Shown one piece after another: positions 679-52,627 of a stretch of 64,000 nt of DNA. How positions within the stretch are numbered: position 1 is the first letter of the stretch; every line of letters begins with the position of its first letter. The notes below the pieces were generated by a model. The model worked only from the letters and a program-made list of their open reading frames with translations, had not been told where the DNA came from and did no database searches. Position numbers and translations under genes: made by a program. The stretch comes from Streptomyces sp. NBC_00162 (GTDB taxonomy: Bacteria > Actinomycetota > Actinomycetes > Streptomycetales > Streptomycetaceae), in assembly GCF_024611995.1 (NCBI RefSeq), contig NZ_CP102509.1, positions 62,001-126,000 on the forward strand, written 5' to 3'.

Positions 679-3600
679 ATCCGGCTGTACTCGCGACTGC
701 CCTCGGCGAATACCGCCCCGGCGGGGTCCTGCCCTCGGCGCAAGAACTGCTGGCGGCCATCACCCAACTGGAGATCGCCGCCTTCGGCAGAACCCAGGAG
801 ATTCCGGACGATGTGCTGGCGACGGCGTGGCTCTTGCACGGACTGGCCGCGGTCGAGCCCGAGACTCCCGGGTTCGACCCGATGCGGACCCGGCAGGCCC
901 TCGCGGTCAGCGCGCACGTGATGGACCTGGCCCTGGCCGACGAGCGACACTCCCCGACCGAGCGGCTGAGGATCGCCTTCGCCGCCCAGGCCGGGTACCG
1001 CCGGTGCGAGCAAGAGCCCAACGCCACCGCCGTCTACCGCCAGGTCAAGAACCTGGTGAACTTCACTTCCTCGCTCCCGGCGCACATCGACACCCTGGCC
1101 CTGGAGGCCGGTGTTGTGTTCCTGGCATTCGACCGGCCCGACCTAAATCGGGTCCTGTCCGCCTGGCGTCGGCAGTTCGCGGAGCTCCGTGAGCTGTTGG
1201 ACGGCGATCCGCTCGCGGGCACGATGTACGGACCTGCCGAAGCCGTCGTCGAAGCCGTCCACCTCCTGCGCCTGTACCTCTCGTTCGGCGATCCGGATCG
1301 CCTGCAGGATGCACAGGATTTGTTGGGCAGCGTGCTCGACGGCCAGGCCGGCCGCAGTGACCCGCCCGCTCGGTGGGTCGCGGCCCACCTCCTCGGCCTG
1401 AGCGGCGAGATGGCCGCCAGCAGCTTGTACACGCTGCTCCCGGGGGAACTCCGGATGCGGTCGCCCGGACCTTCGCGATGTCCGATCCGCCGGTGATGAC
1501 CCTGTGGCGCCCGCAGCGCCAGTTGCTGAACCTGGAACGGGGCAACCCGGTCGACCCCGCCACCAGCCGGAGCCTGATCAGCGTGCCCACCAGCGCGGGT
1601 AAGACGCTGATGGCCCAGCTGGTGATCTGTTCCCACCTGGCGCAGAAGCCCGGCCGCGTGGTCTATGTGTCGCCGATGCGCAGCCTGGGCCGGGAGATGC
1701 GGGCCGCGCTGCGGGGCCGGCTGCGGCTGCTGGAACGCAAGCTGGTCGCCGAGCAGCCGGACTTCCCGCTCGCCGACGGCAGCGGCTCCCTCGTCGGGGA
1801 CGTGGACATCGTGACCCCGGAGCGGCTCATGCACATGATCCGCAACAACCCGGGCGCAGCGCTGGACGAGGTCAGCCTCATCGTCGTCGACGAGGCCCAC
1901 CACCTCGCGCAGGGCCGGCGCGGTTTCGTACTGGAGAGCCTGCTCGCCCTTCTGCGGACCCGCTCCGACACCCGGCTGGTGCTGCTGTCTGCCGCTGTCG
2001 GCAACCGGGGTGCCCTGGCGTCATGGCTGGATCCGGCGCGGCCGGCGGAGGAGGTGTATTTCACCGACGACTGGCGCGGCCCGAGGCGCCTGCACGGCCT
2101 CATGTACCCGAAGCTGCTCAAGGGCCAGGCCGAGCGCACCCCGCGCAAGCCGAGCAAGAACCAGCCCTCCACCACCCGGGCCACTGTGCCGGTGGCCCCC
2201 CGGCTCGACATCCGGCCGACCGCCACCAGCGGCACCTTCGGCCTGACCATCCCCAGCGTCGGCACCAGGGCGTACGCCTCCCCCAACTCCTGGCAGTGGA
2301 AGGCTGCCACCAAGCTCACGGGCGGTATCGCGGACTACGAGGTGTTCGCCGCCGGCGCCGCCGCCCTGACCCGGGCCGGCAGCGTCCTGATGGTCGTCGC
2401 CAGCAAAGTCATCGCCAGGAACGCCGCACGCGCCATGGCCAAGCACCTGGACATCCGCCCCAAGGCGGCGGCGCTCACCGAGTTCCTGGCCGAGACCCTC
2501 GGCGAGCAGCACCCCCTGGTCGACTGCACCCGCCACGGCGTCGCCTTCCACCACGCCGACCTTCCCGACGACGTCCTCCACGCCGTCGAACAAGGACTTC
2601 GAGACGGAGACCTGCTGGCCATCGCCAGCACCACCACCCTCACCGACGGCGTCAACCTCCCGGTGCGCACCGTCATCATCAATCACACGGTCGAGGGTGA
2701 TCCCGCACGCGGGAACCAGCACGGCCTCAGTCCCGCGAAACTGCTCAATGCCATCGGCCGGGCCGGCCGGGCCGGGCGCGAGAGCGAGGGGTGGGTCATC
2801 CTCACCCGCCCCTACCCGCCCCAGGCCGCGGAGTTCGAGACGCTCACCCCCGACAGCGAGCGGCTCACCGTCACCTCCGAACTGCTCAGCGAAGACGCCC
2901 TGCGGTCACTGGCCCATGCCGAGCTGCAGCTGCAGAACTCGCTCGACGGCCTGTTCGGCGTGATGGGAACCGTAGCGGCCGACTTCGCCGCGTTCGTGTG
3001 GCTCGTCCTGCAGACCCACGCCGAGACCCTCCACGCGCCCGGCGACCGGCTGGACTCGGTGCGGTCGCTGCTCGCGATGGAACAGGCCGACGACCCTTCG
3101 GTCCCGGCCCGCTGGATGGCGCTCGCGGAGAAGGTCACCGCGGTCTACGACGCCACCGACCCCGTCTCGACCCGCCGGTGGGCCAGCACCGGAACCAGCA
3201 TCGGATCCGCCCGCTTCCTCGACCAGGTCGCTCGACGCCTCGCGGAGCAACTCGTCGCCTACGCGGTCCCCGAGGACACCCTGGACGAGATCAGCGTCTT
3301 CTTCGGGCCGCCCGAGTGGCCGCTGGAGCAGACCTTGGACTTCCTTGCCGAGCAGGGCGCCTTCAAGAACCTTCTGCTGACGCCTGAGGCCCGCGGGAGC
3401 TGGAAGCTCACCAACGAGCAGAGCAAGAGCCTCACATTCGACGTGCCGATCGACAACGCGGTCCGGGACTGGATCTCCGGCACCTCCATTCCGGAACTGG
3501 CCCGCACCTGGATGCCCGACAGCATCCCGTCCCATCCCCAGATGCTGGAGCTGACCGTCCAGAGCATCAAGCAGGCATTCGAACACGCGATCAGCTGGAC

Positions 3601-4177
3601 AGCCGGAGCCCTAGTCAACCTCGTCAACACCCACCCCCTGCTGACTCCCACCACGCCCCGCCTGTTCGCACAAACGGCCTGGCACATCCGGCACGGCGTC
3701 GACACCGAGCAGGCCATCACGCTGCTGACCTCCGGCATCACCTCCCGCCGCCTGGCCCACCAGATCGGCCGCGCCGCGGCCGAGGCCGGCATTGGCTCCG
3801 GTCAGCTCCGCACCTGGGTCGCCGATCAGCAGATCGACGGCTGGACCACCGCGTACAAGGCCAACACGTACGAGATCGAGGACCTCCTCGACTATGTGAG
3901 CAAACCAGCCAACCCGCTCAACGAGCTGCTGCGAGGCCGTCCCGTGACGATCCCTGTTGCACGGGTAGGCCCGGGCACCGGAGACGGGCCGGTCACCCTG
4001 ACCCACCCAGGCAAGAAGCCGACGACCATCAGCGTCAACCGCGACGGCAACCAGATCGCCGCCATCCCCGCCGCCCGGCATCACGCTGTCCTCACCCTGA
4101 TCGACAGCGGTCTCGACCTCACCCACCACCTTGAGGCCGGGCAGCTTGTCACCACCTTGGCCATGGCCAGCCTGTAG
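663..4177 (+). CDS. hamB: HamB-like Ski2/DEAD-DEAH helicase of a Hachiman defence system
   Basis: Superfamily 2 helicase of about 1170 residues when two frames are joined. The N-terminal 255 residues are helical and ATPase-free. Motif I PTSAGKT lies at 1586-1606, motif II DEAH at 1889-1900, motif III LSAAVGN follows, motif V is STTTLTDGVNLP, and motif VI is NAIGRAGRAG; a long helical C-terminus follows, as in Ski2/Hel308 enzymes. It starts at GTG 663 inside hamA, so the two are probably co-translated. The frame changes at a run of five G (1442-1446), between SLYTLLPG and TPDAVARTF; one extra G would restore it. Family knowledge: HamB unwinds or senses DNA and licenses HamA. Confidence 0.65.
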
Positions 4178-47547: not shown

Positions 47548-47814
47548 ATGCGCACAACTCTTCTCCGTGTGACGGCAGCGCTGGGTGCCGCGGCAGTGCT
47601 GGCTATCTGCGGCGCCGGCGCGGCCAGCGCCGACGGCGTCGGCAACGCGGGAGTCGGCAACGCAGGCGTCGGCAACGCAGGCGCTTTCAACGGCGGCATC
47701 GGCAACGCTGGCATCGCCAACTGGGGTCTGGGCAACGCGGGAATCGCCAACACGGGAATCGGCAGCCACGGCATCGGCAACACCGGCATCGGCAGCTCCG
47801 GCATCGGCAATTGA
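47548..47814 (+). CDS. Small secreted GNxGx-repeat protein
   Basis: 88 residues. A perfect AGGAGG precedes ATG 47548. Signal peptide (LLRVTAALGAAAVLAICGAG, cleavage after ASA) then a mature part of about 60 residues built almost wholly of five-residue repeats: GVGNA GVGNA GVGNA GAFNG GIGNA GIANW GLGNA and so on to GIGSS GIGN. This is the MPTR-like pentapeptide pattern known from mycobacterial PPE proteins, which may form a right-handed beta-helix. No partner is visible. Role unknown. Confidence 0.8.
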   Translation: MRTTLLRVTAALGAAAVLAICGAGAASADGVGNAGVGNAGVGNAGAFNGGIGNAGIANWGLGNAGIANTGIGSHGIGNTGIGSSGIGN

Positions 47815-48193: not shown

Positions 48194-48369
48194 CGAGTTT
48201 TGACAGCCCTGGGGAACTTGCCATGGCTGGCAGCATCAGGGTGCCCCTGGTGAAAAATCCTGGTCATGCCGCAGATGTCCAAGGTCGATTTGTACGCGGC
48301 GATCCGACGTGATCATTGTGCGGGCATGAGCTGAGGAAACCGCCAAGGCCGGCTGACCGCCCGAGGTGC

Positions 48370-49449
48370 TGTGGACGGTCACGTAATTCCCCAGGGCTAC
48401 GATCACGTGATTCCCCAGGCTGTCATCCCGACGTTCCGGAGGGGTGTCCGGAGGCCGGCGTGCCTGACAGCAGCCCGGACTACCGACCCGAGCAGGGCCA
48501 CGCGAATTCACATGACAGCTGTGGTTGGCTCCACGACCATTGGCTGATGACCATGCAACCGGACCTTCTCAGCCTGAGCATCGTGTGCCCACCGCCTGAC
48601 GAGGGCGGCGTGGAGGTCCGCCCGATCGTCAATGGCGGGGATCTTCTGGCTGATGTGGGCCCTGGCGGCGTGGGAGGCTCCCGGTACCTGGGAGTGGGCC
48701 CCCGGTATCTGTTGGACCGGGACGGGTCGTTGCATGCCACCGCGACGCCCCACGAGGCTCGTCTCGCTTGGTCGGGGTGTGGTGTGGAGGAGTGCTGCGG
48801 TGCCCTGTACGTGACGGTCACGCGTGACGGGGATCATGTTGTCTGGGCGGGCTGGCGCGACCCGGCCAACCAGGACGTCTCCCTGCCGGAGCTTCGGTTC
48901 ACCGCAGCTCAGTACGAGGCCGAAGTCCTGCGAGCCGGAGAGGACCGTAGCTGGGAGTGGCCGGCAGGAGCAGTTGCGCGGCTGCTTGAGGCGGGGCTGA
49001 GGGGACGCGGGGACTGGCTCCTCCGGTGGGAGTGCGAGTTGCAAGACGTCTGGGCCTCCCGCAAGCAACCCGACCGAATCCACGTCATCCTGATGCATCC
49101 CCCTAACGGGCCCGATACGGATCTGCCCTGGATCCAGTTCGGGATGACTCTCCCGATTTCCGCGGACGACCCATCGGACCAGGCCGAGCGCCTTGAAGCG
49201 CAGCTGACCGCTGGCGATCCCCGTGCCACCGCCGAGGTCTGGGGAGGTTCGCATGATGCCGAGCAACTGGGCTACCCATGGCCGCCGGTCGACCCGCTGC
49301 TCACGTGAACGCCAGGGAGAGGCGGGCTCGGACCCTGCCATTGGGCATCCACTCGCAACCGCCATCCCCATGGGGAAACGTGACCGTGCGGGTGGGGAAT
49401 TGCGTGACGCCGATCATGTAGATCGTGGGGAAATGCGTGACCGTCGACA
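48370..49449. mobile_element. IS21-ended, transposase-less cassette of 1080 bp
   Basis: The ends begin TG and finish CA and are inverted: TGTGGACGGTCACGTAATTC on the left and TGTCGACGGTCACGCATTTC read inward on the right (21 of 24 identical overall). Both sides carry subterminal copies of the GTCACGNNATTCCCC motif (one on the left at 48401, two on the right at about 49366 and 49390), as in IS21 ends. GGTGC is duplicated on both flanks (48365-48369 and 49450-49454). No istA or istB is inside, only one unknown gene. Confidence 0.8.
48547..49308 (+). CDS. Unknown passenger protein of the IS21-ended cassette
   Basis: 253 residues from ATG 48547, chosen because the composition becomes protein-like there; no strong ribosome site. 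Mixed alpha/beta: LLSLSIVCPPPDEGGVEVRP, CCGALYVTVTRDGDHVVWAG, RWECELQDVWASRKQPDRIH. No signal, membrane or nucleotide motif. It fills most of the element, so it is its cargo. Family not recognised. Confidence 0.6.
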   Translation: MTMQPDLLSLSIVCPPPDEGGVEVRPIVNGGDLLADVGPGGVGGSRYLGVGPRYLLDRDGSLHATATPHEARLAWSGCGVEECCGALYVTVTRDGDHVVWAGWRDPANQDVSLPELRFTAAQYEAEVLRAGEDRSWEWPAGAVARLLEAGLRGRGDWLLRWECELQDVWASRKQPDRIHVILMHPPNGPDTDLPWIQFGMTLPISADDPSDQAERLEAQLTAGDPRATAEVWGGSHDAEQLGYPWPPVDPLLT

Positions 49450-49468
49450 GGTGCGACTCGACGGCCCG

Positions 49469-52549: not shown

Positions 52550-52627
52550 TGAGGGAATGTGACCACCTGGGTGGGGAACTACCTGACGCCGAACTGGCCG
52601 AGGTGGGGAATGGGGCGACCGTCGCCA
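52550..52627. mobile_element. Relic IS21-type right end
   Basis: Three spaced copies of the TGGGGAA-x-GTGAC motif type (starting near 52553, 52571 and 52603) and a CA terminus at 52627, the same layout and orientation as the right end of the 48370-49449 cassette. No matching left end or duplication was found. It touches the 3' side of the 52647 gene. Confidence 0.5.

Follow-up and report, generated by a model that had tools for sequence, protein, structure and literature searches.

The unit described here occupies positions 48370–49449 (1,080 bp, read directly) of a 64-kb stretch of Streptomyces chromosome, referred to below as the window (Table 1). Its left end, TGTGGACGGTCACGTAATTCCCCA, starts with TG, and the reverse complement of its right end reads TGTCGACGGTCACGCATTTCCCCA, giving TG...CA termini. 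Each end holds a second repeat, which lies 24 bp further in on the left (the 24-spaced or E24 end) and 33 bp further in on the right (the 33-spaced or E33 end). TG...CA termini with two repeats per end are the architecture of IS21-type ends. A perfect direct repeat, GGTGC, flanks the unit; IS21 target duplications measure 4–8 bp, a range that includes these 5 bp, and two random 5-mers of the window would be identical with a probability of 0.002. Two end models, trained on a set of such ends with the window's own ends among the training rows, match the two ends with E values of 2.6e-16 and 3.2e-19 in the 64-kb window. The inverted TG...CA ends with subterminal repeats and the GGTGC duplication on both sides, as described in the initial annotation, are thus borne out.

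Table 1 Features of the 1,080-bp unit and its immediate borders, in window coordinates
Feature	Position	Strand	Basis and remarks
Target-site duplication, left copy (GGTGC)	48365..48369	.	Sequence
E24 end (24-spaced): TG start and two repeats 24 bp apart	48370..48417	+	End models; ~50 bp common to other compared elements
Passenger gene, 253 aa	48547..49308	+	ORF; runs from the E24 end inward; dN/dS 0.24–0.42
E33 end (33-spaced), the istA-side end in autonomous relatives	49393..49449	-	End models; ~60–90 bp resembles E33 of most other compared elements
Target-site duplication, right copy (GGTGC)	49450..49454	.	Sequence

Inside the unit there is one ORF, of 253 codons, whose product has no match in Pfam, no family in three profile libraries and no significant fold match. 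Neither istA nor istB was matched between the two ends, which sets the unit apart from an autonomous IS21, and the 62 bp that separate the gene from the right end, where a scar of these genes was sought, gave no significant istA/istB match. This agrees with the earlier description of a single 253-residue gene in an element devoid of istA and istB. The dN/dS values of Table 1, obtained by a simple count against six copies, are consistent with purifying selection. Homologues of the protein number 180 at E ≤ 0.001 and, among the 120 listed, the named ones are mostly from Streptomyces or Kitasatospora. A match at E ≤ 1e-8 is present in 32 of 150 genus genomes, and 38 cargo loci were retrieved from the genome collection. 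The window's own genome holds a single full copy of the whole unit, together with a second, weaker match that covers part of the gene.

Several other features lie near the unit. A second, degenerate E33-type end is found at 52572–52626 on the minus strand (E 3.7e-6 in the 64-kb window); no E24 partner was found for it, and it is perhaps what remains of another member of this family. In the left flank (~48267–48336) a short reading, MPQMSKVDLYAAIRRDHCAGMS, is followed by a stop. We take it to resemble the start of another transposase; this region has no match to the istA proteins used in the analysis. All or part of 48194–48329 matches several other genomes. Further out, 47548–47814 encodes a small protein that looks secreted and is rich in Gly-Asn repeats (GNAGVGNAG...).

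We compared the unit, with 1 kb on either side, with the cargo loci. Among the best copies, homology halts at, or no more than ~20 bp from, the ends of the unit in L033, L034, L036 and L041; in L037, L044 and L005 it is exact to one end and starts ~30 bp inside the other, where there is one repeat only. Five relatives at other sites have their own exact 5-bp duplication, each different from the rest: L033 (CTCGA), L037 (CCTGA), L041 (AGGGA), L044 (TCTGC) and L214 (ACTCG). Four of these are whole and one, the plasmid copy L214, is split by another IS. Three of the nine paired copies lack an exact duplication—L036 by one mismatch, L034 by two and L005 by two at the scripted coordinates, or by one if a changed left end (first base altered) is read by eye. 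L033 and L214 are ~95% identical to the window copy and, like it, are without this istAB; with their own duplications at other sites, the istAB-less form most likely moved as such. Copies at different sites, bounded at the same ends and in several cases flanked by their own 5-bp duplications, support the original reading of a mobile gene cassette. As a separate observation, L038 carries an extra half E24-type end (4102–4129), ~740 bp outside the cargo cassette's own.

A tree of the cargo was built from 43 rows, copies with fewer than 190 aligned residues being left out; the latter include L053, L054 and L067, which lie in the same place as L011 and have an E33 end. All nine both-end copies and two one-end copies fall in a single 25-row clade (support 99/98). 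This statement rests on unlabelled rows, the tree tool's own test of the both-ends against the one-end label having given no clustering. No ends were seen in the 18 rows outside the clade, where rows from the genus-genome cargo search were scanned by pattern only. Loci with a single detected end are common; in L006 the end models find none, and its "one end" was assigned by eye only. The initial annotation had named the presence of the same DNA without the ends as a ground for rejecting its reading, and such DNA does exist: the end models detect no end in 14 of the 25 clade rows. Many of these end-less members still share non-coding DNA from inside the window element, which would be consistent with decay, if no proof of it. 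More distant homologues (~36–54% identity) have no ends, and the relatives at L012 and L002, the latter from the window's own genome, form the C-terminal part of longer reading frames (612 and 584 aa).

Across 392 genus genomes, the core end pattern was found in 36, and the control, the same pattern read backward, gave 0 in the rows listed. Among end pairs spaced by ~3.2 kb are IS21 elements. Both L101 and L102 encode istA and istB, as judged by Pfam, and their IstA and IstB score above the NCBIfam cut-offs (227 against 160 bits for the IS21 transposase, 249 against 200 bits for IstB). These two elements are identical across 3,273 bp and occupy two sites in one genome, with duplications AACGG and GAGGC; the autonomous IS21 with these ends that the initial annotation proposed to look for is therefore at hand. 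In L101-type elements the istA side terminates in the 33-spaced end and istB is followed by the 24-spaced end; the distinction between the two types weakens in more distant relatives. Of 295 genus genomes, 24 contain an istA of this type at E ≤ 1e-60. No close istA was found in the genome of the window itself, whose best match reaches 29% identity across part of the protein, and the search for an autonomous element with the window cargo gave 0 istA/istB matches in 42 cargo-homologue loci, the majority scanned together with flanks of up to 5 kb. One 3,288-bp record, deposited as a linear Streptomyces plasmid (L222; NZ_CP129140.1, 1–3288), consists of one element of the family, running from TG to CA plus one base and containing istA, istB and a 159-aa passenger; it represents either a circle formed by excision or a contig into which repeat copies collapsed.

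L101, L102, L103 and others carry an extra gene in the interval from istB to the E24 end. The order is LLM oxidoreductase–istB–istA in a Streptomyces antimycoticus plasmid (L220) and DUF6882–istB–istA in plasmids of strains NBC_01321 and NBC_01238 (L221, L223 and L224), and a DUF1877 passenger accompanies istAB in an NBC_00316 plasmid (L227). Elements with istAB only measure 2.61–2.64 kb (L123, L143, L185, L225, L226, L228 and, from Rhodococcus ruber, L229). A set of 40 elements, hand-chosen from loci with two detected ends and so giving proportions that are not frequencies, comprises 18 without this istAB, 13 with istAB and an E24-side passenger, 2 with istAB and E33-side extra DNA, and 7 with istAB alone; many of the source loci had been found through the end pattern itself. 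The 18 include L150, interrupted by another istAB pair, and L214, interrupted by other transposase genes. Of the 40, 24 are flanked by a duplication that is exact over 5–6 bp and 2 by one that is exact over 4 bp; 4 show one mismatch, and 10 lack a duplication at the coordinates used, a number that includes L187, which begins at a contig end and is not scorable. L112 and L138, located solely by half E24-type ends on both sides, have no exact duplication. By class, exact 5–6 bp duplications flank 10/18 elements without this istAB, 8/15 with istAB and extra DNA, and 6/7 with istAB alone.

The search for other cargos between such ends, also proposed at the outset, was successful. Passengers found without istAB are, besides the window cargo, a 173-aa family (L148 and L150), an Imm10-like protein, DUF1877, a family-less 213-aa protein, an SDR/TetR pair, and a 349-aa protein and an alpha/beta hydrolase (these last two without exact duplications). 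Those found with istAB are the same 173-aa family, DUF6882, DUF1877, LLM, a methyltransferase, an ankyrin protein, YunG and unassigned proteins. Two families, the 173-aa family and DUF1877, occur in both forms and have an identical orientation with and without istAB. At L150 3335–5538 (also L104) a 173-aa-family cassette is broken by a different istA/istB pair, its outer duplication GCGCC being intact. On their istA side, L146 (6869–7716) and L187 (2446–3591) have additional DNA that contains reading frames, possibly a second passenger position.

Pairwise comparison of nine elements revealed that, where the passengers differ, similarity is confined to the end regions, with ~50 bp of the E24 end and, for almost every pair, 50–110 bp of E33. 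The 738-bp cassette L148 aligns to L101 at 1–639 and 3184–3273, corresponding to L101-like DNA without istAB in which ~36 bp of the istB end is retained (istB being at 604–1368 in that orientation). Likewise, the 759-bp DUF1877 cassette L213 aligns to L227 at 1–643 and 3133–3194. Set against L101 and L227, the two cassettes show how such units originate, by deletion of istAB with the passenger and the ends kept. The window cassette most likely descends, via loss of istAB, from an autonomous IS21 in which the gene already occupied the istB–E24 interval.

Insertion was also apparent from sites that lack an element. L224 (DUF6882–istB–istA) is absent at the same site in the plasmids of NBC_01108, NBC_01321 and NBC_01240, where there is one GAAGC in place of two. 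The L221 copy is absent in the NBC_01240 and NBC_01108 plasmids, which have one GCGGC; at L236, a third locus, an exact-string search gave no match. For the istAB-less DUF1877 cassette L213, the flanks are joined with one CGCCG in plasmids of NBC_01590, NBC_00046 and NBC_00984. On comparison of the sequences, these single-target empty sites confirm insertion both of the istAB form and of the istAB-less sister L213. A search of 120 relatives, in which two candidates were scored for each genome, gave no empty site of the window copy; its right flank (from ~49436 at the earliest) matches many genomes, and none of the listed matches joins this flank to the left one. The empty-site check suggested by the initial annotation thus succeeded for L213 and a passenger-bearing istAB element, with one target copy, but not for the window copy itself.

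We consider the window element, with a probability of roughly 0.92, to be a non-autonomous IS21-type element, a mobile insertion cassette with two IS21 ends, one host-type gene and no istAB, which likely arose by istAB loss and would be moved in trans. Its ends and duplication, the copies elsewhere, the other cargos, the autonomous relatives and the empty sites of sister elements are all directly observed. IstA and IstB supplied from another element in the cell would act on the cassette: IstA would bind the repeat-bearing E24 and E33 ends, IstB would prepare the target, and a cut at TG...CA would be followed by insertion of the unit with a 5-bp target duplication. Such movement in trans is proposed from the end architecture and from published IS21 biochemistry, as given in PMC10122671. 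As the host has no close helper, the unit would be parked today unless a helper arrives on a plasmid.

A fixed relic, left by an autonomous IS21 that decayed with the loss of istAB, no longer moving and with a passenger kept only because the host uses it, would also account for a single full copy in a genome without a close helper transposase, and for the many cargo homologues without ends. We regard this as improbable, given that the window copy has both its ends and its 5-bp duplication intact, that L033 and L214 lie at other sites with their own duplications while lacking this istAB, and that an istAB-less sister cassette has empty sites in related plasmids. Far less credible still is an origin of each end from a separate IS21 relic, the middle having been caught by recombination: one-end loci are indeed common, and the window has its E33-like relic at 52572–52626, but the unit pairs one E24 with one E33 end, inverted and with a shared duplication, as in autonomous elements, recurs at other sites with the same boundaries and its own duplications, and has no significant istA/istB match in the 62 bp next to its right end. 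An ordinary chromosomal gene with chance flanking repeats that resemble IS21 ends, a reading to which the end-less distant homologues and the C-terminal position of the relatives in ~600-aa proteins might lend themselves, is refuted by end matches in the 64-kb window with E values of 1e-16 to 1e-19, by homology that stops at the ends, by duplications at several sites and by the same ends on elements with istAB.

Beyond the single cassette, the passengers lead us to a tentative proposal, to which we give somewhat less than an even chance: that the elements of this IS21 clade form a modular platform for carrying genes in the Streptomycetaceae. Their istB–E24 slot would accept small genes unrelated to one another (Imm10-like, DUF1877, DUF6882, ankyrin, LLM oxidoreductase, methyltransferase and several unassigned), and loss of istAB would leave a cassette movable by a single helper. 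Part of the cargo looks immunity-type, and the clade may therefore spread self-protection genes between plasmids and chromosome arms. If this is true, Streptomyces would gain a route of small-gene exchange besides plasmids and integrative elements, raising the questions of how genes enter the slot and whether one IstAB pair serves many cassettes.

IS21 elements are two-gene transposons and models for AAA+-controlled transposition. Their ends contain L1/L2 and R1/R2 repeats, two per end, and an IstA tetramer brings the two ends together, as described in PMC10122671. The elements analysed here agree with the IS21 family in TG...CA termini, two repeats per end and exact 5–6 bp duplications in 24/40, and the relatives encode IstA and IstB. 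Unlike a typical IS21, the window element has a passenger and neither istA nor istB, and the passengers of many relatives lie between istB and the E24 end. A transporter IS (tIS) has its own transposase plus a passenger within its ends; L101-, L221- and L227-type elements fit this, whereas the window element has no transposase. The term is used for a type of IS in the Figure 1 legend of PMC9330008. In a limited search of the open-access literature, no description was found of passenger-bearing IS21 elements, IS21 cassettes or an IS21 tIS.

With miniature elements (MITEs) the window cassette shares its short length, non-autonomy, common ends and target duplication. MITEs have no coding capacity, whereas the cassette carries an intact 253-aa gene with dN/dS <0.5, which places it outside that group. 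Integron gene cassettes depend on an attC site and an integron integrase; the ends and the duplication of the window element point to transposition instead. The closest likeness is to mobile insertion cassettes (MICs), which PMC3913671 describes as units flanked by inverted repeats that lack a neighbouring transposase gene and in most cases have a target duplication; MIC231A1 is there reported to be mobilisable in trans by the IS231A transposase. The window element likewise has inverted IS ends, a passenger, no transposase and a target duplication, with empty sites from sister elements only. As in MIC231/IS231 of Bacillus cereus, again as outlined in PMC3913671, a passenger replaces the transposase between inverted IS ends. 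In contrast to MIC231, the ends of the window cassette are of the IS21 family, with two repeats each at 24- and 33-bp spacing, and its putative helper, which would act in trans, consists of two proteins, IstA and the AAA+ protein IstB. IS231 belongs to the IS4 family. IS231–MIC231 elements are described as modular in the title of reference 35 of PMC3913671. The window cassette exemplifies a modular family of IS21 elements with passengers, MIC-like in its organization and based on another IS family.
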